DNA of 64,000 nt, taken from NCBI RefSeq assembly GCF_037975245.1, contig NC_092569.1:35887168-35951167 (forward strand). The letters are read 5' to 3'. The notes under the pieces are model-generated. The model was not told where the DNA came from. It saw nothing but the letters and a program-made list of their open reading frames with translations, and made no database searches. This stretch comes from Apostichopus japonicus. Its lineage: Eukaryota > Echinodermata > Holothuroidea > Aspidochirotida > Stichopodidae. The position numbers were made by a program, and so were the translations under genes. Below are positions 2,971 through 62,864 of the stretch, in pieces. The number at the start of each line of letters is the position of its first letter. Within the stretch, counting starts at the first letter, position 1.

Positions 2971-11503
<8,533 letters not shown>

Positions 11504-16900: not shown

Positions 16901-19664
16901 AATATAGCAAGTGTTCCTATATACTAAAGAGTCATAGGGGTATTGCAAATTAAACTTGGAATTGTCAACGCTGTACTTTCATGCCTGTTTTGTCCCTCCC
17001 AAATTATTAATAATAATAATCATCATCATAATAATAATAAATAAAAAATAGTTAGGATATACTACATAAATTCCGCAAAGGCGCTTCTATACACAAATAA
17101 CTTTGTTTATTTGAAAATTTTGCCCAAAAAAATTATGGAAAAACAAAATAAAAATGAAGCACATGTGGCTCGATGACGTCATATTTAGACTTGATCAAGT
17201 CTTCGCTGGTTTGAATCTGTGTTATCTCCCAAATGGAATAAGATTATTCTAAGCTGTTTAGGGAAAGTTGTTTTTTACATTTATCTCTTCTCATCTTAAA
17301 TCGATAATGATGTTGGGTTTGTGTCTCCTTTTCACAGTCCTCAAAATATCAACATTTTGCTTTTGTTTTTACCTACAGTAATCCAGTAATAACAATATGG
17401 TCAGGGGAGGGCTGAACTTTTCACCATACTGATTGGTGTTTTGCCAACTTGAACTTTGATCTTAATTTCGTAACGGAAACTGGTCTGTTCTCACGTCTAC
17501 GAGGTATGCATGTTATGACGTCATATATGTAGGAGTCGAACAGTCCATTCGTTTGTTTATCAGAGCACAGCAGTTCATGCCAGACACAGTAAAGACGGAA
17601 ACCCAAGGAGGAAAAACCTCGTTAATACCAAACAAGCCGAGTCGAGAAAGCACCAAGTCATTAAATTACACACAGGGTGTTATCAGTGGATGTGGTCAAG
17701 TTGAATACGTCCTTTTGTTTTGAAGCTATAGTGATTAATCAGTTGTAATACTAATTGAATCAGGGAGGGCTATTTGGATGTAAGAGTATGATTATAAGTT
17801 CACTTATTTGTTCCTTAGTGTAAAGAATTCCTGTTTGTATAAAGATATTTCTTCTGAGTCCGACGGTGTTGTACTTCCATTGTTTGCTGGGTGAATTATA
17901 TATACACTTTTTCTACAGTGAAACCATTGATCGGATTAAGCACAGGACAACAGTTGTGTTTGTAAGGTATACGGGAGATCTTCGCGGATGTATGCATCTG
18001 TATAGGCTATACTATACAACTTGCTCCTTTATCCTTCATAATGTACCGCAATATATTTACGCCATAGATAAGCAAGTTTCGGTGTGGATGAAATAATTCG
18101 TAGTGAACAAGAAATAAGCAAAAAGGTTTTTACAATAGAGCAACAAGAGAACTATGGATGGGTCTGTGAAGCAGTAGTCTGCAGAACAGTAACAGCTCGC
18201 TGTTTGAACAATTAACGCGTATTCCCAACGATCAGGATAATTCCATGCACTCCATTATGTTCATCGTGATGGATTTCTGTATCCCCTGGTAATTTAAATA
18301 TTCAAGCCTCTTCTCAGGCCAATTACTGTCTCCAAGCTGAATTAATCCTAACGTTCATGGGATTAATAGCATGTCAATTAGGAAGAAAACTTCAGGACAC
18401 TGAAACGTCTAGTATAATGACATGGTGACTTTATAGTGCGAGTTTGTGCTTCAGTTCTGACAAGGCACAAAGGGGCAAATTTGATCTTATTTTTACCGCT
18501 CAGTGAAGTAACTTTAAAGAGTAAAACCCTCTTAACCGGAATTAACCTGTAAACGATTCTTAATTTATACCCTACAGTCAACGAATAAACATACGCGTTT
18601 CTATTTCACCGACGGATGGATTGTTTACCGTTGTATCCTTTGTAGATATTATCTCTTGTCCGTTTTCACATGAAATTAGACTTTGTGTAAAGTTTGTGCG
18701 AGCCAGCCCGAGGCTTAAGCAGTTTGCTCAGTCTGTTCAACAACAGGTAATTCAGACACATTATGATAATGGCGGTGTTTGCAAGGAACTGTTGTTTTAG
18801 TGCATAGAATTTTACACCAAAAAAAAAAGACCTTCATGATAGAGTATAGGCTAGAAGGTTCTTTGCTGACAACTACATAGCATGTGAACGCTTCCCTTTA
18901 TCTCAATTAATATTGGAAGAAGACTTTTGTTGGAATAAGTTCCCATTCGAAGTGATGATTTGATTCGGTTGGAATCGAAAACGGAAGTGTTACGAGGTCT
19001 TGGTTTCTTGTTATTGCGGCCTGCAGATATAGTTAAGTTATATATCAACTTATACACTGTCATATTTTCGCCACTTCAGAGAACATTAAAGCAGAAGTCC
19101 GTGCCGGAAAAATATGGAAACAACTTTGTGATTCTGTCAATGGGATAGACCAAATCTTCTTAAAAGGAAGCGTTTATGTATAGGGACGATATTTTACCTA
19201 TCTTGTAAAACATACCGGAAGAGATTAATGTGAATATACAGGGAAATAATGTTAGGTTTTTTAACTGTGTATATTTTCCCAGGGAGTGCAACATGGTCAC
19301 AATTTCAGTACTGATTATTTCCGATAAGGAGAATCCTGTTTGTCTTGTGTCCAGTTTTTATTGATTTCAATTAAACATTGATTTATGTTTCCACTTATTG
19401 GTTAATTTCCGGATGTTGACGCGAACAAATTTAAGTTTATTGCTATACATTCAATTCTAGGAAAGATATATATATCCTGTATCGAATGTGTGGATGACAT
19501 TGCGACTGATTAGTACTGCTAACGTGTGAATATTTCGATTGCTTCTTCATGCTTGAGCTATGAGGAAGCTAGCTACCAGGCTGTTATTCGATTAACAATA
19601 AACTTGAACTTTCCAACAACAACAAAATAAGCAGTACCAAACACGAACAACGAAACATTCTTCA
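13950..19664. other. intergenic DNA with repeat fragments, no gene recognised
   Basis: Fragments with G- and C-runs and ends like CCAGTGGTGTGGCCAGGG (14328) and CGTACGCCTATG (about 15250-15262) resemble ends of the hAT-type MITE family. There is a (TA)n run near 15137 and an ATA/CAT run near 17005-17045. The longest ORF is 16253-16726 (157 codons), which has no domain I recognise and no supporting splice or start context. Confidence 0.4.
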
Positions 19665-22600
19665 ATGGAATCATATTCTCAAGTTTTGATCAGTATAATG
19701 GCTGAGACGCTGAAATACTTATCTAGTTTCAACTTTTTCTGGATAGCGCAGATATTTGTGTTGGTTAAGTATGGAGATATGACTCATATATCAGAATCAA
19801 AGTTAGCTTACAATCTCAACATATCTTGCGCAGACTTCGATATAGAACATTGTCGTACGGTTGTTTCAATGTGTTTGTACTTTCGGCCGAATTCGATGAC
19901 TACCAGGGACTCGTCTAGTGTGCTATTTTCTTACTTTGATAAAGGGTCAAGTTTTGAAGAAAGTGTCCAACTACACGTTCAACATGCACAAGAAGTATTT
20001 TGGGTTCATCGCAACGAGAAAAAGTATTTATTGTGAGTCCTATATTACAGACCCGCTAATTATTTTACATACTCAGTCGAGGGGTAGCGGGACATGTTAT
20101 ATTAAGTAAGTGACGGGGCAAGCCACAAATATATCTCAAGACATACCGACAATGTTAATCCCATCTTTGCATACCGCACCACAAAATTCCAAGAGTTTAA
20201 TGACAATTATTAATTACCAAAAATATGAGAGGACACTTTGTATTATCGGAAAGGGGCATTGTTGAGGTTCATCACAAAACCATGGAGATGTGGGGGTGTG
20301 GGAGGGGGACACATGCCCTTGCCTCCGCCGGCCCTTTAAGTAATGCGTTTATGTTATACTGCAAGTTTATGTTATACTGCAAGTTTATGTTATACTGCAA
20401 GTTTCTGTTAGCGATATATCGCGAATTCGTGTCCTTTTCTATCTTATCGTGGGCGATATATCGCGAATTGAATATCCTTTTCTATATCTTATCATTGACG
20501 ATATATCGCAAGTTGAATGTCCCTTTCTATATCATATCGTGGGCGATATATCGCGAATTGAAATGTCCCTTATACATCAGTTTGTTTTTATTCGACAGAT
20601 TTGAGATTCCAAGAGTTTTACGAAATGAGTCCTCCTGGCGCCATTTATGTTTCTTGACGTCATCAAGTGAATTTGGTTACACTATGACCCTTTCTATTGA
20701 AGACGGAAACGGGACAATAAGTCTACCACTGGAAGACAGAGCGATTGGGTTTCATGAAGCACCGACCAGGTCACAGAGACAACTGAAATATACCTTTGGA
20801 GGTTGGTTCAATATCTTCACCTTAAAATTGTGAATATGTAGATTATGTTATCAACCTTTAAATGTGTAAAAGAAGAAAAATAATATTTACACTAGAAAAT
20901 TAATTACAACGGTAGATTGAATGATGTCATTGGTGGTGTGCCTATGAAAGCTTGACAAATGTTATTGTTCTCATTTTATTATTATTTTTGAAGAAATGTT
21001 TTTTTTTTGCATTGCTAAAAGAAGCAACTATACAGAAATATTTATAGAAAAGAAAACAAAAAAATTAGGTAAAATATGGAGATTATTTCTCCATTCTTTA
21101 TTATAACTGATTATTATTTTTTTTCATGCTACGCATAATTTATTTCACCTTTATTTTCTTCAAAGGTGGAAACCTTTCTTCAGAAAATCAAAGGGCGCCA
21201 TTATATTTTGAGTGTGTTAGGGACGTAACGTTCACAGTTTATAGCAACGCAAACAACTTCTACGAGCTGGCTATTAAAGACGACACAGGTAAACTAATTA
21301 GAGTGAAAAGCTGTTAACTTTACTAAAGTCTGATATCTGAATACCTCAAAGACGGATGTGATGAAATTGTTCTTGAAGGCCGTATTAAATATAGCTGTTT
21401 ATATAGCCTACCCATTTCCACCTTCATTTTCTTCTGTTATATGTTAAAAGAGAGAGAGAAAAAAAGAAGAAATATTTCACAGCTGCGTCTAAACAATTGA
21501 TAATCTTAGAATTACATCAATCTCTATATCTAATTAATTCACATGTGTTTCGTTTTCATTTTAATCTAAAACAGATGATATTTGTCAACAAACCTGTCTT
21601 ACAAATAAACCATGTCAGTCATCGGATAAATGTTTGAACTTTCTTCCGGTTGATGCTGGAGGTATTGACAGATGTGAATGCTTGGAAGGGACAGTAATTG
21701 GAACAACTTGCCGAAAATTATCTAAGTCTAAAGGTAAGATCATTTGATGTTCTCCCTTATCTAAATGAAAAACTGAGTAAAAAAATAATCATTTGCCAAA
21801 TATCTGATGATATTCCTATAAAGCTTGAATTTAATTTATTTTTCTGTTTTGCTTTTGTTGATATTTCTTCAGATTTTTTCTCCATTGGTTGGGTTGTTTT
21901 GTTAACTGCAATGCCGTTTCTACTAGTGCTAATCTCATTGTGTATATACTGCGTAGTAGCTGGCAACAAATTACGTCGTCAGTCTGCGGAAGATATGAAA
22001 AAGAAAGGTAAAATTTCATCACTAAGCTTTACCATGAGTTGGTTCCTTCCTGATCCTTACATGTCTTCATACTCAATGCACTGGATCCCTTGGGATCGAT
22101 ATATCATGATATAGGATATCGTTAACTGTATTTTATGTTAAACGTATATTCATTCATACTTAGTAAAGATTCCTAAATCCTATTGGTCCATTCAGGTCAG
22201 CTGACCGTGGTTAATCCTGTGAGTAACGCACGGTAAAATTACGGGGCATCACTTTAATACATCTTTGGTTATATGTAACCAAAAATGTTTTGTTTTATGA
22301 TATTTCCCCCACACAAATGGTAGTGTATGAATGAACGGGGTTAATCAACGGTCTAGCGTGCGTTACCCCTTATTACAACATACGCTAAAACAAATCGAGT
22401 CGATGTTTTCAAAGCAAATGATGTGTTCAATGTTCAATGTTGTTCAAGCTATATACATTACACATAAACCTTATTGTGCATATAACATGCAATTTGATAC
22501 ACGTTTACCCAGGGCTGTATTCCATGAAGGTAGTTCCAATATGAATGGATACTGAGTTACCCAGGCTATATGTATTGCATGTAAACCTTATTGTGCATAT

Positions 22601-24586
22601 AACATGCAGTTTGATACACGTTTACCCAGAGCTGTATTCCCTGAAGGTATAGGCCTATATGTATGCATACAGAGTTAACCATGGGTTAAACTGCACATAT
22701 CATTTTTCTATAGCAATTTATTTAACAAAGCCGATATTCAGCCATATAGTATGTCGGTCAAGTGATATTTGTAAATGAAAATAAAAAAAACTACTTTTTT
22801 TTACCTAATTTTAATGGTTTCATTCCCTCTCCAGGGCAGCCATCATCCAAAGTAGACACGTTGCCGGGTAAACGAGCTACCATTAGCAGCAAATTGCCTT
22901 CATCATTGGTAAATTATTAGCTAATCCCTTTTTACAGTTCTAGAACTAACAATAGAAAGCATTGTCTCGGTTCAGTGTGCTTTTCCCATTGGCAGTTGGG
23001 AATATGCCGGTATGTCGGTTTGGCATGTTCGATACCATTGTTCAAATAACTAAGAACTTACCCTACATTCATGAACTTGTTTCTATACCCTCGACAATTC
23101 CTCCCCTTCCCTCCCCCCTCATTTGTTGCAATGGGTAATAAGAATATTAACAACTCAGGGCGTTGTTCCGCTTTGAACTCCACCTTCCTTTCAAATGTAC
23201 CCTTTCGATCCAGCCAAAAAAAAAGGAATTACTACCAAATAAAGATGTAATCTTTCACTTCACATTTTACGTTGTAAGGAACTGAACTGCGCGATTTGAT
23301 ACTATATTTTAACAGCAGGGGGTAGGCGATGGGTGATGAAGCACGGGAAATATGCAACCAGGCATCTGATTCAGAGGAGATTTAGGGAGGGACACAATGC
23401 TGACCACAAACCCTTTCAAATCTTGCTTTCATTTAATTAAGTTTTATGACTTATGACAAAAATCAAAAGCATTATCAGAAGATGGACACCGAGCCCTAAG
23501 TATGCTGTAAATTATTTATAAAAGGATTTAAAGGGTACGTGTGAAGACTCGCGCACAAAGAAACGTCTCATGCCGGTAATCTGACCTAGTTTCGAATGAG
23601 GTGTAACAGAAGTGTTAGACACCACCATCGATCCCAGAAAATACACACACAGCTTGCTACCGTCGGTAATTAGACACTAGTGTACAGTCAATACATACAA
23701 CTACGGTCAATACCCACAGCACAGTGTACATAGCAGCGTGGACATCTCAGGTCCAGCTAAAGATAACAAGGTATCACGTTTCATTACTGTCTGCATTTTG
23801 TAGCGACAAGAAGAAACCGTCATTTGCAAGCAATGGAAAGTTCACTTTTTTGGAGCGCGGCACGCGGTTTGGGGCGAGTCTTCAATGTCTTTAAGAACAA
23901 AACAAGGGAGATAATTAAAACTTTCAGGGAGTTGAGTGGGGTATCATTTCCCCTCCCTGGAAATGTACACGTAAACAGGTAAATGGAGGACCCTCATCCA
24001 CCCTCTCCAAATAGACCCAGTCATTACACATTCGCCTTCTACCATTAATATGAGCACGTGATCAATACGAAACATTGACCGCCTTTTGTAGTATTTGAGC
24101 ACTGTAAAAGTAAAAAGAAAACACACGGTAAACACGGAGTCTGAGTCCTTGTAACTTTCGTCACGGTAAAAACGTAGTATGAGTCATTGTAATGACGTCA
24201 TATGTAAACTTTCATCTTCTATTTTTTGTTATTGTGGATGAGGTCATACCATAACACGTGTGTTTTGTTATTTAAGAAGACTTCATATACATTAATCTGT
24301 GTCTTGTATTGTTTATAATTTTAGATGACGTCATGCCTTAAGCCATATCTGTTATTGTTTTATATTACAGTCAAGTTCCATTGAACTAGAATGGGATCCA
24401 CAGGCCGAAAATAAAATCAAGAATCCAGAACTGGAATGGGATCACGATGCCCATAACCCCGATATATCGGGCTATTTTACCGAATGTGAGTTAGAGACGG
24501 TGCCTTCGGATGCAGAAACTCAAGCTTTAAATGTCATTAATGATACTACAGAAGATCGTAAAAACGTAACTGTGACGTCAGTATAA
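19665..24586 (+). CDS. single-pass membrane protein: pentraxin-like ectodomain, EGF-like module, TM, acidic tail
   Basis: Seven exons: 19665-20032, 20599-20801, 21166-21288, 21575-21733, 21873-22007, 22835-22908 and 24371-24586, total 425 residues, all junctions GT-AG and in frame. A hydrophobic leader lies near residues 15-35. Residues about 60-190 look like a pentraxin/LamG-type jelly roll: VVSMCLYFRP (Cys70) pairs in position with WRHLCFLTSSS (Cys140), as the conserved disulphide of pentraxins does, and an EDGNG segment follows. Residues 232-284 hold seven cysteines in an EGF-like order (DRCECLEG). A transmembrane helix spans about 290-314, followed by basic KLRR and an acidic tail with a repeated ELEWD motif. 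Introns 2-5 are all phase 1, so the EGF-like and TM exons are symmetric modules. Several N-glycosylation sites are present. Probably a cell-surface receptor or adhesion protein; ligand unknown. The pentraxin call is from motif placement only. Confidence 0.8.
20338..20580. repeat. two tandem repeats in intron 1, one with GCGATATATCGC palindrome
   Basis: First come three copies of TGTTATACTGCAAGTTTA (18 bp). Then there are four copies, 41-48 bp apart, of a unit with GCGATATATCGCGAATTGAA and TGTCCCTTTTCTATATCTTA. The core GCGATATATCGC is a perfect palindrome (two copies begin with A in place of the first G). Because the units happen to stay open, a spurious 202-codon ORF runs through this intron into exon 2. 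Confidence 0.9.
22446..22685. repeat. 118-bp direct duplication
   Basis: Two copies, near 22448 and 22566, share AACCTTATTGTGCATATAAC, TTTGATACACGTTTACCCAG and GCTGTATTCC. The array lies in intron 5 of the pentraxin-like gene. Confidence 0.85.
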
Positions 24587-30000: not shown

Positions 30001-33000
30001 TAATAATTTCATAAATAGATGGATTAATTGTGAATATATATTTTTTCTCTTTCATTCACAGGAATGTCTGACTTTCAATATTTACCCATGGAAACCAGAC
30101 CCGATGGATCCCACAAGCCCATTCTGGATGAGTTAGTGCCAAGTTCTGTCGAGGATACCTCTTTCTTGAAGAAGGACGCCAATCTATTTATCATGCCGGG
30201 TAATTTCTCTCGAATGGATACACCGTCTGGATACCTTTACCAGAAACAAAAGAGTGGACAAGATCCCTTATTGGAAGAGAATCTTATTGGCAAAAGAAGG
30301 AAAAGGCGTCCAGGATTGGCCTACCTTGTTCCATTTGATGTCGAAAATGTCCCAACCGACCCCCAACCGGAGGCAGCCCAAAGCGTCTATAGAATGAAGT
30401 TGAAGGATGAATTGGAATTCTTAACAAAGGTAGCTATTAAAAACTGAATTATTTACAAATCAAGTTCTTCTAAAATGATTGATCATGCATATCTGACAAA
30501 ACTCTGAAAAAAGTAACCAAATGTAATGCTTCTCCGTTAAATTCCTGAAATAACGATATTAGCTACCGTAGAAAGTATCATACAATAGGTCAAAAAATTA
30601 CACTTTTCTCTCTTTCCGTTAATACTCTCGTAAACAAAACTACTGTTTAGTGCTTCTTTAAGACTCTTCTGTCTTTATCTTAAACTTCAAACATGAAGTG
30701 TTATTTCTGTTTGACTTTTTCAACCACAGAAATTGTCTGTATTTTAATTTTGTTTTGTTCCAGCTCTTTGAAAAGCGTTCTATGTGGAGCAGAAATGCCC
30801 TGTTGGTCTGTTCGAAGCTTCCTATGAATACACTCAAGGTGGTGCTGCCAATGATAGCCTATTACTTCCTATCAGGTCCATGGAGGACTGTGTGGTGCCG
30901 ACTCGGTTATGATCCTCGCAAGGATAAAGCCTCCAGAATGTTCCAAGTGGTCGACTTCAGAATGAGAATTAGTAAGATTTCCATTCTTGTCAGATTTCCC
31001 TCTTTGCAATCAATGATAGGATACATTATTTATATTTTAGCTCTTCAAATTGCTTAGGAATACTGAATGTATTTTGATCTGTACAAGTGCTTGTAGTATC
31101 TGCAGCAAATGTTTACTTCTCACCATCATTTTGATTGGGAAAGTTCTTGTGGTATTGCTTCTAATAATCACAAGTTCTAGAGAAATATTAAAGAACTCTG
31201 TTTTAGTGAACTAGTATGAACTAGCCTTAAAACTTTACGGCTATATAACAAAAAATGTCCTTTTTTTGTTGAAAGTAAGTGAGGCTTCAGCCTTAAGTTT
31301 ATCATCAGAAATGATGAGAAAGTTGTACTGTAGGCCTAAACTTTAAGTGTTGATAATTGTTGCTGTTAATTGGTGTGATTATTCTGTGATTGTTCTTGCA
31401 TATATAGAGGTACTGACTTATAATTAGCCATTGTTGTGATGTTAATGTTTTCTTGTTTGTTTTTTTGCTGATATTCATCCTTACTCCTTACAGGCAGGTG
31501 TAAGGAACAGGATTAAAATCTTTAATGAACATTTTTGAGGCAGCGATGGTCTCGATAGGTTCTCTGCGTAGTATTTGTTTCCAAGTATAGATTAATAACA
31601 TCTCACTTTTGAAATGAAGTAGATCATAATCCATTTCCTTTTTTCAAAACTTTTTATAGTTTGGCCTGGATTTTATTTTCAGAGGTGTTATCAAAGGCCA
31701 AAGCTCTTATTCAGCCATCAACCGCTGGTCAACCAAATATCCTAGCTAATCCAAACCGACGTTTGACCAAAGGGGCTTCTGTACCATCAAGGGTTGAAGA
31801 AGAAGACCAAGATCCACTACCATGCTTCACTCCAAAACTCCTCTCGGTAAGTGGACTAAAAATGCATTATGATTAATGTTGGATCTACATCTCTCAAGGT
31901 ACCTTGTCTGTCCACTTCAAGTAACCGCAGGAAATGATCACAAAAGATAATCTGTCAAGGGAACCGCACAGATGAGTAATGTTAAGAATACCCTGTTATG
32001 TGAAGATACCCGTGGATGAGTATCATTATAGATACCCTGTTATGTGAAGATACCCGTGGATGAGCATCATTATGGATACCTTGTAAGGTTAATATACCCA
32101 TGGATGAGTATCACTTTTAATACCCTGTTAAGTGGAGGTACCCATGGATGAGTTTCATTATATATACCCTGTTAGGTTAAGATACCCATGGATGAGTATC
32201 AAAGATACCCTGTTAGGTTAAGATACCCATGGATGAGTATCATTATGGATACCCTGTAAGGTTAATATACCCATGGATGAGTATCACTTTTAATACCCTG
32301 TTAAGTGAAGGTACCCATGGATGAGTATCATTATATATACCCTGTTAGGTTAAGATACTCATCCATGAGTATCATTATGGATACCCTGTTAAGTGAAGAT
32401 ACCCATGGATGAGTATCATTATGGATACACTGCTAAGTGAAGATGCCCATGGATGAGTATCATTATGGATACCCTGTTAAGTGAAGATACCCATGGATGA
32501 GTATCACTATGGATACCCTGTTAGGTTAAGATACCCATGGATGAGTATCATTATGGATACACTGCTAAGTGATGATACCCATGGAAGAGTATCACTATGG
32601 ATACACTGCCAAATGAAGATACCCATGGATGAGTATCATTATGGATACACTACTAAGTGAAGATACCCATGGATGAGTATCATAATGGAAACCCTATAAG
32701 GTGAAGATACTCATTGATGAGTGTCATTCAAGGTATGCAACGTCCCGGTTTAAATCTCATGTTGTAAATATAAATTCATGTTGTAAATAGAAATTAATGT
32801 TGTAAATATAAATTAATGTAAACAGTCCGATAATATATCTTGTACCCATGTATTTGAATCAGGCAGCAACTGCACTATACATTGATCTTTTTCTGTATAT
32901 CTTTTCTCTTTTTTTAATTTCCTTTTGTTTTTCCTTTGCATTATTAGGATGCTAATTACCTCCTCAAGGATGATCTCCTACCAGCCCATTACCAGATGTG

Positions 33001-48600: not shown

Positions 48601-51600
48601 CACATGGTTACATGCTGCCATGGTTACAGGCTGCTATGGTTACAGGCTGCCATGTTTTTACAGACTTTTGTCATTGCTACACACTGTGACGATAGAACCT
48701 GTCATTTGATTACCTTGCTAAATGATTTCTTTTTGGTTTCATCGACCTCTGTATGTCAGAGAGTTTAAAGTTCATATCTCACTGCTTGTGCAGGCTGTAC
48801 CCGGTGTTAATGGGATGTTAAAACAATACTAGTAGATACTGCTCTCATAAACAGAATGTTTCAGGATGTCTATCTCACTAATAGGGAACCTTTACTGGTC
48901 TGGCCCCATAAATTGCAAGCTCTTTTGGACAATACTTTATACAATAAACATACATTCACTTTGACTTATTGATACACCAAATGAGCTCGAGCTCATTAAA
49001 GGATCCTTTAATTAATAGAACAATAAATAACTAAACTAAAAATAAAATTAATGCCCAAAAAAATCTGCATTTGACTTCTTTTTGAAATGTATTTCGCTCT
49101 TTGCTATTCATTTACAGAAATTAAGATTTGTGCCGATATTTCATATAATTTCATATTTATGTCTCTCGCTTGGCCTCACTATTTTCCAGGTATTTGATCG
49201 ACCTCCAGAGGGTGTACGTAAGATTATCATCTCTACTAACATCGCCGAGACGAGTATCACCATTGATGATGTGGTGTATGTCGTGGACATGGGTCGTGTT
49301 AAAGAAACAAACTTTGACGTAAAGAACAACCTGAGCACATTGAAGCCAGAGTGGGTTAGTAAAGCGTCTGCCTGTCAAAGGCGAGGAAGGGCTGGAAGGT
49401 GAGAAGATAATCCAAACTAAGATAACACAAACTACATATCTTCTGCAAAAAACCTGCATGAGTAAATGTATGAAAGTTGGAGAGACTGACTTTGCTATCC
49501 TAGCAGGATCTTCTTGAGGCTATGCATTTGCTATCTTCTGTTAGCTCTGTTGAGTTCACCTTTACGCCATTTTGCAATTTGCTTGCAATGATGTTTGTAA
49601 TGATCGTCAAGTTGGGTAGAATTGACTGTAACAATGTTTGTTGTTCTTCAGGGTACAACCAGGTGAATGCTTCCACATCTACAGTCAACTTAAAGCAGAT
49701 CTCCTGAATGAATACCAGCAACCAGAGATGCTTAGGACACCACTGGAATCTATATGTCTGAGAATCAAGGTACAAAGCTCTTTAAATAAATACAAAAACA
49801 AATATATGCCACAAGATTTTACTCAAAGGATAGTGCATTATCAAATGACCAGACATCCCTGGTTTCCAGGGGCAAACCACAGATTTCATGTACCGCCCGT
49901 GGATTAAAGATGTCCTGGGTAATTTGTCCCTGGTATTTTATGTAAGGGCTGATACTATCCCAGGAATATCCCCAAATATTTAAAACGGCCCTGATTTTGT
50001 TTTTGCTTTTACCCATTTGGTCTCCAACATAAAAAAAACTTGTTTAAATGTTGTGATTGTTTACAATTACAATTGGAGTGTTCATAGATTACTCACAGAT
50101 CAAACCAGCCCAGATCATTGAATAACTGCATATAGCCTGATTTCCAGCTACCTTTATTCATTTTGGCATGAGACTTTAAACTTTGATTAAACACTTGCTT
50201 CTGGATGAGGTGTTCTAATCTGCATTGATTGTTTGATCGTAGTCCTTAAAACTTAGCAACATGAAAACACTAATAGGCCCTCAAAATGCCACCCCTTTTA
50301 TAAATTTGAGGTTGAGAGACTTAATTCTGAAGGGTCTCTGCCCTCCATGGTTTATTTTCAGGTGACCCTTGATATCACAGTATGATGATTCCATTTAACC
50401 TGTGTTGTCATGGTAAATCTGCAGATAACTATAAAACAGATAAAAGAATAATAAATAAACAAAGATGAGAAAACTTCCGATCGGTCTACATATCTCGAAA
50501 GAATGATGTTGTTTTCTCTCTTCTACGATTTCTTTTTTTAGTCTCTTAAACTTGGTCTGGTCGAGCCTTTCATCAGTAAGGCATTGCAGCCCCCTGACGA
50601 AGGAGCTGTTAAACTTGCCATACAAACACTACAACAATTGGTAAGCTTTAAGTCTTCCTTTATTCACAATTTTATAATCCTGTAAGGAGGAACAGGGAGA
50701 TTTACATACTTTATGTCTTGAAAATTAAATACTGAAAAATTCTTTTGCAGAAAGTAATCTTAATATTGGTCATGGGAAAGTGAACAAATTATTTGGATCT
50801 TTGTTCTCAGTATATCATCAACTGATTGACAAACTTACAGCTGTATCTATTGCTGGGAATATTATCAATTCAAACTTCCAGTTTTCTGCACACAATTTTG
50901 CAATGTTAACAATATTTGTATGAAAATTATGAATAAGAACTGGTGTGGGCATGAAAATGATATTAGTACGAGCCACAGTTGTGTGCAATCCATGGTGCCA
51001 CAATACTTACAGATGTTCCAACTACCATGATATAACAGACATGGGAAATAAACATTTCTACATGCTTACATTGTCTGACATCTGTTAGGTTTAAACATCC
51101 TTCCACAAGTAGGCCCTAAATACAAACTTCTTATCTTGAAACATCCTTCCACAAGTAGGCCCTAAATACAAACTTCTTATATTGAAACGTCATTCCATAA
51201 GTAGGCCCTAAATACAAACTTCTTATATTTAAACATCATTCCACAAGTAGGCCCTAAATACAGACTTCTTCTATTGAAACATCCTTCCACAAGTGGGCCC
51301 TAAATACAAACTTCTTATCTTGAAACATCCTTCCACAAGTAGGCCATTCTTATCTTGAAACATCCTTCCACAAGTAAGCCCTAAATACAAGCATCTGTTA
51401 TGCTGAAAAATCCTTCCAAAAGAAGGCCCTAAATACAAAGTTTTAACATTTGACATTTTCCCAGTTTCAGTCATTCAGTGAATTTGTTATTTCAGCTGTT
51501 TTACAGTCGGATATGAAGCATTGCTTCAGCATTATATGTTTTCGTAGGTCACATTAACACAGTCTTGAAAAGTCTTCTAGCAGATTTAGTGAACATTGTG

Positions 51601-61950: not shown

Positions 61951-61993
61951 TCAGCTTCAGTGGTATGTAACAGACAAGAGAGGCAAATAGAAG

Positions 61994-62864
61994 ATGACAG
62001 ACATACCAGCAGGAGCGGTAAGTGATGGGGTGGAGCAAACCCCATCACTGATTACACCGAAAAATATGGTAGGTACCTTACTGTGTACTCAGCTAGTACA
62101 GTATGCTGTGTATACAGTAATGTATATGGTATGCTATGCACACACTATGCACACAGTATTGTGTATGGTATGCTATGCACACTGTGTATTGTATGCTATG
62201 CACACAGTACTGTGTATGGTATGCTATGCACACAGTACTGCGTATGGTATGCTATGCACACAGTACTGTGAATGGTATGCTATGCAAACAGTACTGTGTA
62301 TTGTATGCTATGCACACAGTACTGTGTATGGTATGCTACGCACACAGTACTGTGTATGATATGATAATAATACTAATAATAATAATTATAACACTTATAA
62401 CACAGTGCACCACAACCATGTGTCCCCCGGGGGACTTCCCATAGGGTGCAGCCACAAACTGGCGCACGCAACTATATTTACAAGTTACCTTGCAGGTAAC
62501 TACACAGTACTTCGTATGGTATGGTATACACACAGTACTGTGTACAGTAAGCTATGCACACAGTACTGTGTATAGTATGCTACGCACACAGTACTGCGTA
62601 TGGTATGCTATGCACACAGTACTGTACATGTACAAATTGAGTGTCACTCAGACTTGTATAATAAATATCCAACTTATAATCTGACTTTGTAAAGTTCTAA
62701 GAATTACTCATAATCGACAGAAGATTAACCAGGTTTAAAGTTTCTGGGACCAAACCCCTCCTTCTCCACCTCATCAGCCTGCCCTTATCCTTACTCTGCC
62801 CTCATCAATCCTCTAAAGCAATTTTCACGAATTTGCAATTTTTCAGGACGATGAACAGCTCACT
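61994..62864 (+). CDS. possible 5' end of a gene running past the window
   Basis: The acceptor TTTTCAG at 61954 opens an exon with ATG at 61994, coding MTDIPAGA and ending at GCG|GTAAGT (62017). An 18-nt exon at 62847-62864 (TTTTTCAG|GACGATGAACAGCTCACT|GTGAGT) continues in frame as DDEQLT. Both exons have good splice signals and phase 0. Only 14 residues are visible, so the protein cannot be named, and no further exon is clear before the window ends. The intron between them is filled by a minisatellite. Confidence 0.38.
62090..62636. repeat. 28-bp minisatellite with CACAGTACTGTG palindrome
   Basis: About fifteen copies of a unit made of GCTATGCACACAGTACTGTG and TATGGTAT, broken by a non-repeat insert at about 62360-62505. 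The palindrome CAGTACTG is also the core of the array at 1436-1660. Confidence 0.93.

Follow-up and report, generated by a model that had tools for sequence, protein, structure and literature searches.

The 64,000-nucleotide stretch of the sea cucumber Apostichopus japonicus genome analyzed here (contig NC_092569.1, positions 35,887,168 to 35,951,167, forward strand; hereafter the window) contains, between positions 19665 and 24586, a seven-exon gene model for a 425-residue membrane protein whose acidic tail carries the motif LEWD twice. We favor, at a probability of roughly 55%, the reading that this protein is a type I membrane receptor able to bring kinesin-1 to the vesicles that carry it, calsyntenin-like in its working while unrelated to calsyntenin in sequence. 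ELEWD, in both its copies, agrees with the W-acidic (LEWD) kinesin light chain motif published for calsyntenin, SKIP, and nesprins; judged by this match at the sequence level, the likely function would shift from that of a signaling pattern receptor to that of a motor-coupled cargo receptor.

Both motifs lie within one exon, C-terminal to the transmembrane (TM) segment, and were assigned by the definition in PMC5450233. The first occupies 24386..24397 (+), residues 360-363, in the context IELEWDPQAEN, and the second occupies 24431..24442 (+), residues 375-378, in the context PELEWDHDAHN. An earlier note on this DNA, made from the letters alone, had described a tail with a repeated ELEWD; two copies are indeed present, with tryptophans at 362 and 377 and thus a spacing of 15 residues, and they would lie on the cytosolic side of the membrane. 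Translated in six frames, the window gives 127,996 residues, among which the wider pattern [LM][DE]W[DE] has two matches, both of them in exon 7. When the 114-residue tail was shuffled 200,000 times, LEWD occurred twice in none of the shuffles and at least once in 223, and two [LM][DE]W[DE] matches occurred in a single shuffle.

The W-acidic motif is described, in a passage of PMC5450233, as a tryptophan flanked by aspartate or glutamate, often with leucine or methionine at position −2, and the SKIP peptide of solved structure reads TNLEWDDSAI in the corresponding part of PMC6214655. Excerpts of PMC9365671 and PMC9537699 state that changing LEWD to LEAA in nesprin-4 abolishes kinesin binding. 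In an experiment recounted in PMC6214655, an artificial TM protein given either of the two W-acidic motifs of calsyntenin brought kinesin-1 to vesicles and drove their transport.

In the mechanism that we favor, the protein, where expressed, would reside at the surface or on endosomes as a single-pass type I receptor, and its degenerate pentraxin/LamG-like head and EGF-like spacer would bind ligand, probably without a classical CRP-type calcium site. The tandem W-acidic motifs would bind in the TPR groove of kinesin light chain; this docking would relieve kinesin-1 autoinhibition and let the receptor's own vesicles move along microtubules to the plus end. With two motifs, the tail might occupy the two light chains of a single motor, or it might gain avidity. 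The C terminus, TVTSV, resembles what we take to be a class I PDZ ligand, and RRQS near the membrane presumably resembles a basophilic kinase site; a PDZ scaffold at the end of the journey could capture the terminal TSV, and the PDZ-like C terminus and the RRQS site may anchor or regulate the receptor.

The A. japonicus assembly that was searched (35 contigs, 671.6 Mb; the window is C9:35887168-35951167) also contains the corresponding motor subunit and a motif-bearing calsyntenin. There is one clear kinesin light chain locus, on C8, whose best aligned pieces are 61 to 100% identical to the human KLC1 sequence; the TPR2 and TPR3 pieces, with MLNILALVYR and VAATLNNLAVLY, are 98% and 100% identical to it. 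The calsyntenin locus, found on C11 by PF19699 (CLSTN_C), has a juxtamembrane exon reading QDMDWDDGPLNITV (Pfam, 2.8e-15), which contains QDMDWDDGPL and hence the motif MDWDDG. Within 1 kb on the downstream side of this exon, an open frame not recognized by Pfam ends in GSPLEWDDSNLKF-stop with the motif LEWDDS, and we assign it to calsyntenin by its position and likeness. Because the calsyntenin locus carries such motifs, the W-acidic motif class appears to be in use in this animal.

Calsyntenin (alcadein, CLSTN) is the nearest functional comparison, being likewise a type I TM protein with two cytoplasmic W-acidic motifs. Its ectodomain is of LamG type, with cadherin repeats followed by an LNS domain. 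Unlike calsyntenin, the window protein includes an EGF-like module and matches neither cadherin nor CLSTN_C, and its two motifs stand 15 residues apart in one exon, whereas those of the calsyntenin in the same genome are in two separate open frames. We considered and rejected the idea that the window protein is a diverged calsyntenin paralogue: PF19699 gave no match to it at E 10, no similarity below E 0.26 was found across 29 kb of the calsyntenin locus, and the Pfam scan of the protein returned no cadherin or LamG match.

The same architecture could serve a different purpose, and we regard as unlikely, while still deserving serious attention, the alternative that the protein serves pattern recognition or adhesion at the cell surface and signals through its tail by another route, with the ELEWD repeats serving a sorting adaptor or scaffold rather than kinesin. 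A pentraxin/LamG-like half together with an EGF-like module is in keeping with such a receptor, the basic juxtamembrane RRQS and the C-terminal TSV would suit signaling or scaffolding, and PMC9087282 applies the label W-acidic to a bacterial kinase, where the function is unrelated. However, Pfam recognizes no signaling domain in the tail, both motifs carry the L, E, W, and D of the kinesin motif as published, and the animal's own calsyntenin locus shows the motif class.

The gene model itself is supported by GT/AG borders at all six introns and by an in-frame join of the seven exons, as the earlier note had proposed, here borne out at the level of the reading frame. Exon 1 (19665..20032, +) contains the start, a weak hydrophobic leader (residues ~16-34), and the first part of the pentraxin-like domain with C70 (CRP C36), and exon 2 (20599..20801, +) contains the remaining recognizable pentraxin-like half, with W136-R-H138-L-C140 (CRP H95/C97). 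The C-terminal part of the domain, in which the pentraxin match is not significant, is encoded by exon 3 (21166..21288, +), the EGF-like module (C239-x5-C-x5-C-x13-C-x-C-x9-C277, plus C235) by exon 4 (21575..21733, +), and the TM helix with a basic juxtamembrane KLRRQ..KKK stretch by exon 5 (21873..22007, +). Exon 6 (22835..22908, +) would form a cytoplasmic linker rich in serine and lysine, and exon 7 (24371..24586, +, stop included) would form the acidic cytoplasmic tail that ends in TVTSV. The running phase at the exon ends is 2, 1, 1, 1, 1, 0, so that exon 3, the EGF-like exon 4, and the TM exon 5 each have phase 1 at both ends; the phase-1 introns previously reported on both sides of the EGF-like and TM exons are thus present, as is the single TM helix, which hydropathy places in one strong segment at residues ~287-312. 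The assigned frame is open in all seven exons (in exon 7, as far as the stop that ends it), with no other open forward frame in exons 1 to 4, 6, and 7 and one in exon 5. The ATG at 19665 lies in an open frame that starts at 19608 and is preceded by an in-frame stop. Joining exon 1 to exon 2 is supported externally, since the alignment with PTX3 (residues 68-178) spans the junction.

It is highly improbable, in our view, that the join is partly wrong and exon 7 comes from another transcript or isoform; the TM protein would then stop with exon 6, and the LEWD exon would be no part of it. Intron 6 is the longest (1,462 bases), an unspliced exon 6 would add only three more codons (VNY) before a stop, and codon usage gives poor backing to the frame outside exons 4 and 7. 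Against these points, the exon 7 acceptor ends in TTACAG, the phase 0 join introduces no stop, and codon usage supports exon 7 more than any other exon (11.2 bits). Exon 7 also provides an acidic tail after the TM segment and the basic juxtamembrane stretch, although no systematic search for other exons able to join to it was made. Introns 1 and 5 contain short repeats (20349-20560 and 22450-22640), recognized by eye as a tandem tgttatactgcaagttta, a repeated palindromic gcgatatatcgc unit, and a stretch of ~55 bases in two copies.

For the ectodomain, the earlier note had suggested a pentraxin/LamG-like domain, and the suggestion is supported for the N-terminal half but not for a complete domain. 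The protein was compared with seven pentraxins (PTX3, CRP, NPTX1, NPTX2, SAP, zebrafish CRP, and Limulus SAP). The Smith-Waterman score against PTX3 was 75, compared with 28.4 +/- 4.2 for shuffles, none of 300 scoring as high, over residues 68-178; the matches to CRP and NPTX1 were weaker, with 4 and 6 of 300 shuffles as high, respectively. A hidden Markov model of the seven pentraxins scored 14.2 bits (0 of 2,000 shuffles as high; best shuffle, 10.8), and BLASTP against PTX3, as a single comparison, gave an E value of 2e-5. When the halves were scored separately, the N-terminal half was equaled by 0 of 500 shuffles for PTX3 and NPTX1, 1 for CRP, 21 for NPTX2, 41 for Limulus SAP, 103 for zebrafish CRP, and 120 for SAP, whereas the C-terminal half was at chance in all seven comparisons (121 to 429 of 500 shuffles as high). 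The matching region is residues 67-146, with PTX3 as the best match, and within it C70 and C140 align with the conserved pentraxin cysteine pair C36/C97 (CRP numbering).

The pentraxin signature pattern is HxCx[ST]WxS, and H95, C97, and W100 are invariant across the seven aligned pentraxins. The window protein keeps H138 and C140 and has T in place of the signature W; W100, G154, and W162, all invariant in the seven pentraxins, are lost. The calcium-ligand positions of CRP are 60, 61, 138, 139, 140, 147, and 150, where the window protein has S, F, R, Q, L, L, and E and thus differs at six of the seven. PTX3 has P, Y, E, K, N, D, and L at the same positions, mostly non-CRP residues, by an alignment that is unreliable in the C-terminal half. 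Since PTX3 also departs at most positions, the differences at these positions do not by themselves exclude a pentraxin. Pfam found no pentraxin (PF00354), LamG, or EGF domain in the protein even at E 10, and phmmer with the full protein against PDB returned nothing at E 10. The ectodomain is best described, as far as the sequence goes, as a degenerate pentraxin-like domain and not as a pentraxin: it shares FSY, H-x-C, and both conserved cysteines with PTX3, NPTX1, and CRP, but it is membrane anchored, lacks the signature W, has an unrecognizable C-terminal half, and seems to lack most CRP-type calcium ligands (as PTX3 partly does).

A membrane-tied pentraxin domain has precedents in the neuronal pentraxin receptor (NPTXR) and in the adhesion G protein-coupled receptors ADGRG4 and ADGRG6. 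NPTXR is a type II protein whose TM segment is N-terminal to its pentraxin domain. One might accordingly view the window protein as a diverged relative of NPTXR or of the pentraxin-bearing adhesion receptors that clusters extracellular partners and whose tail is incidental, and this we hold to be quite unlikely. The N-terminal half beats shuffles against PTX3, CRP, and NPTX1, and pentraxin-type domains are known on ADGRG4 and ADGRG6. On the other hand, the TM segment (~287-312) here follows the domain, with an EGF-like spacer between them and a kinesin-motif tail beyond; hydropathy gives one TM segment rather than seven; and the C-terminal half is unrecognizable. Nor does the window protein match, at E 10, the separate Pfam-recognized pentraxin gene of the same genome. 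That gene is the one match to PF00354 at E 0.001 and is located on C2, where a classical pentraxin domain is present in three separate pieces (C2:21929160-21929336) with GQEQD and WHH; it is possibly an adhesion-receptor pentraxin.

The spacer has six cysteines in an EGF-type spacing of 5-5-13-1-9. All six align with a stretch of the same genome, with 38% identity over 47 columns; this stretch is EGF by Pfam (6.2e-6), and its match to the module is weak (E 1.79 genome-wide). The Pfam scan of the module itself returned no EGF family, and the assignment as EGF-like, which the earlier note had also made, is read from the cysteine spacing and the weak match to a Pfam-recognized EGF of the same genome.

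The significance of the motif depends on its setting. A genome scan for WD...LEWD gave 43 places (23 forward and 20 reverse), compared with 127 (69 and 58) for the backward control, and the pattern is thus not enriched. Among 30 of the 43 places, this gene alone has LEWD twice in one open frame. The remaining 13 were read only as matched strings, and 8 of those 13 belong to two tandem arrays, one on C21 and one on C22. The C22 array (C22:5130148-5130365, -) resembles simple tandem repetition. A repeated retrotransposon-like frame (FDLVLLQETFWDQSIHDQAKLEWDGD) with one LEWD makes up 10 of the 30 loci (L040-L043 and L054-L059), one of them with a stop.

Several observations weigh against the kinesin-1 receptor that we favor. 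The C22 array translates in part as PLEWDSNQRPLEWD, with LEWD twice and no intervening stop. Given this array and the lack of enrichment of WD...LEWD, the weight of the motif comes from its position in the tail of a TM protein and not from rarity alone. The two motif copies are alike at 15 of 16 bases, differing within ELEWD by a single synonymous change, and thus are not independent evidence; the second copy may be explained by duplication. The residue after LEWD is P or H here and D in both SKIP and the calsyntenin of the same genome. In one purified single-molecule assay described in PMC9365671, kinesin did not respond to a SKIP fragment carrying the motifs in tandem, and on account of that result the motifs need not suffice and may need context. 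In the gene model, the stretch that would be the candidate leader is weakly hydrophobic (residues 16-34; 19-residue mean, 1.43). Codon usage, trained on a small and not clean set of 1,127 codons, makes the assigned frame the best of three forward frames in only two of the seven exons (4 and 7), and the whole coding sequence scores -6.3 bits, a value per codon reached by 34 of 2,000 noncoding stretches; the join and the tail rest on evidence other than codon usage, and the odds that we give are unchanged by it. In the ectodomain, clear matches are limited to three of the seven pentraxins (PTX3, CRP, and NPTX1). The Smith-Waterman match to NPTX2 is borderline (29 of 300 shuffles as high), those to Limulus SAP, SAP, and zebrafish CRP do not exceed shuffles (87, 166, and 183 of 300), and the hhalign probability is only 33%.

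The separate elements are already known, namely W-acidic adaptors, calsyntenin, and pentraxin domains linked to membranes. Nesprin-4 and SKIP (PLEKHM2) share with the window protein the LEWD motif that recruits kinesin-1, in tandem in SKIP, but as nuclear-envelope and peripheral adaptors, respectively, they lack a receptor ectodomain. The combination of a pentraxin-like head, an EGF-like spacer, a single TM segment, and a tandem LEWD tail was not found in open-licence literature listings, nor did the entries listed there mention a pentraxin or EGF receptor whose tail is W-acidic, which is weak evidence of absence. We tentatively speculate, with some doubt, that the protein may represent a second class of single-pass kinesin-1 cargo receptor, one that evolved independently and converged on calsyntenin. 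It would be a surface receptor restricted to its echinoderm lineage, and its pentraxin-like head and tandem LEWD tail would link ligand-bearing membranes directly to kinesin-1, with no cytosolic adaptor between them. The model for direct recruitment of kinesin-1 by a membrane protein's own tail is calsyntenin, and the presence of the tandem motif on a receptor unrelated to it would mean that such wiring evolved more than once. It would also provide a natural test of motif spacing against motor activation, with 15 residues here and 70 in calsyntenin-1 (by the W903/W973 numbering in a passage of PMC3314626), and a handle on receptor transport in sea cucumber neurons or coelomocytes.

A search of the genome with the whole protein listed 11 matches, 7 of which are its own exons, the other 4 having E values of 0.34 to 7.2; no close paralogue was seen among these best-scoring candidates, and a diverged one could be missed. 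The match on C7 (L009, E 0.34 genome-wide) is a frame without the cysteine pattern and was taken as chance, as were two matches in a repetitive 5,224-residue frame (L011 and L012, E 7.2). Within the window, a hint of a paralogue at 36200-36165 (-), LYIECIHDLTFT, is at chance level (E 0.86). As a separate observation, the core pattern of stichopin, a holothurian peptide, occurs at two places ~16.6 Mb apart on C7 (L016 and L017), with no matches for the backward control. The first site, the one read through, gives DRQGWPACYDSKGNYKC-stop; the genome thus encodes stichopin exactly, which marks the animal as a sea cucumber.

Other features of the window include a 594-residue open frame at 2974-4755 (-) with a Pfam Filamin repeat (1e-7), which presumably resembles an NXPE-type protein. 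The exons at 30037-31054 (+) encode a TFIIIC subunit (Pfam Tau95, 6e-23), which we take to be probably GTF3C5, and an exon at 49055-49399 (+) encodes a helicase C-terminal domain (1e-7), of DEAH type by eye. Near the end of the window, at 61991-62359 (+), a low-complexity tandem repeat translates as repeated VCYAH-type units.

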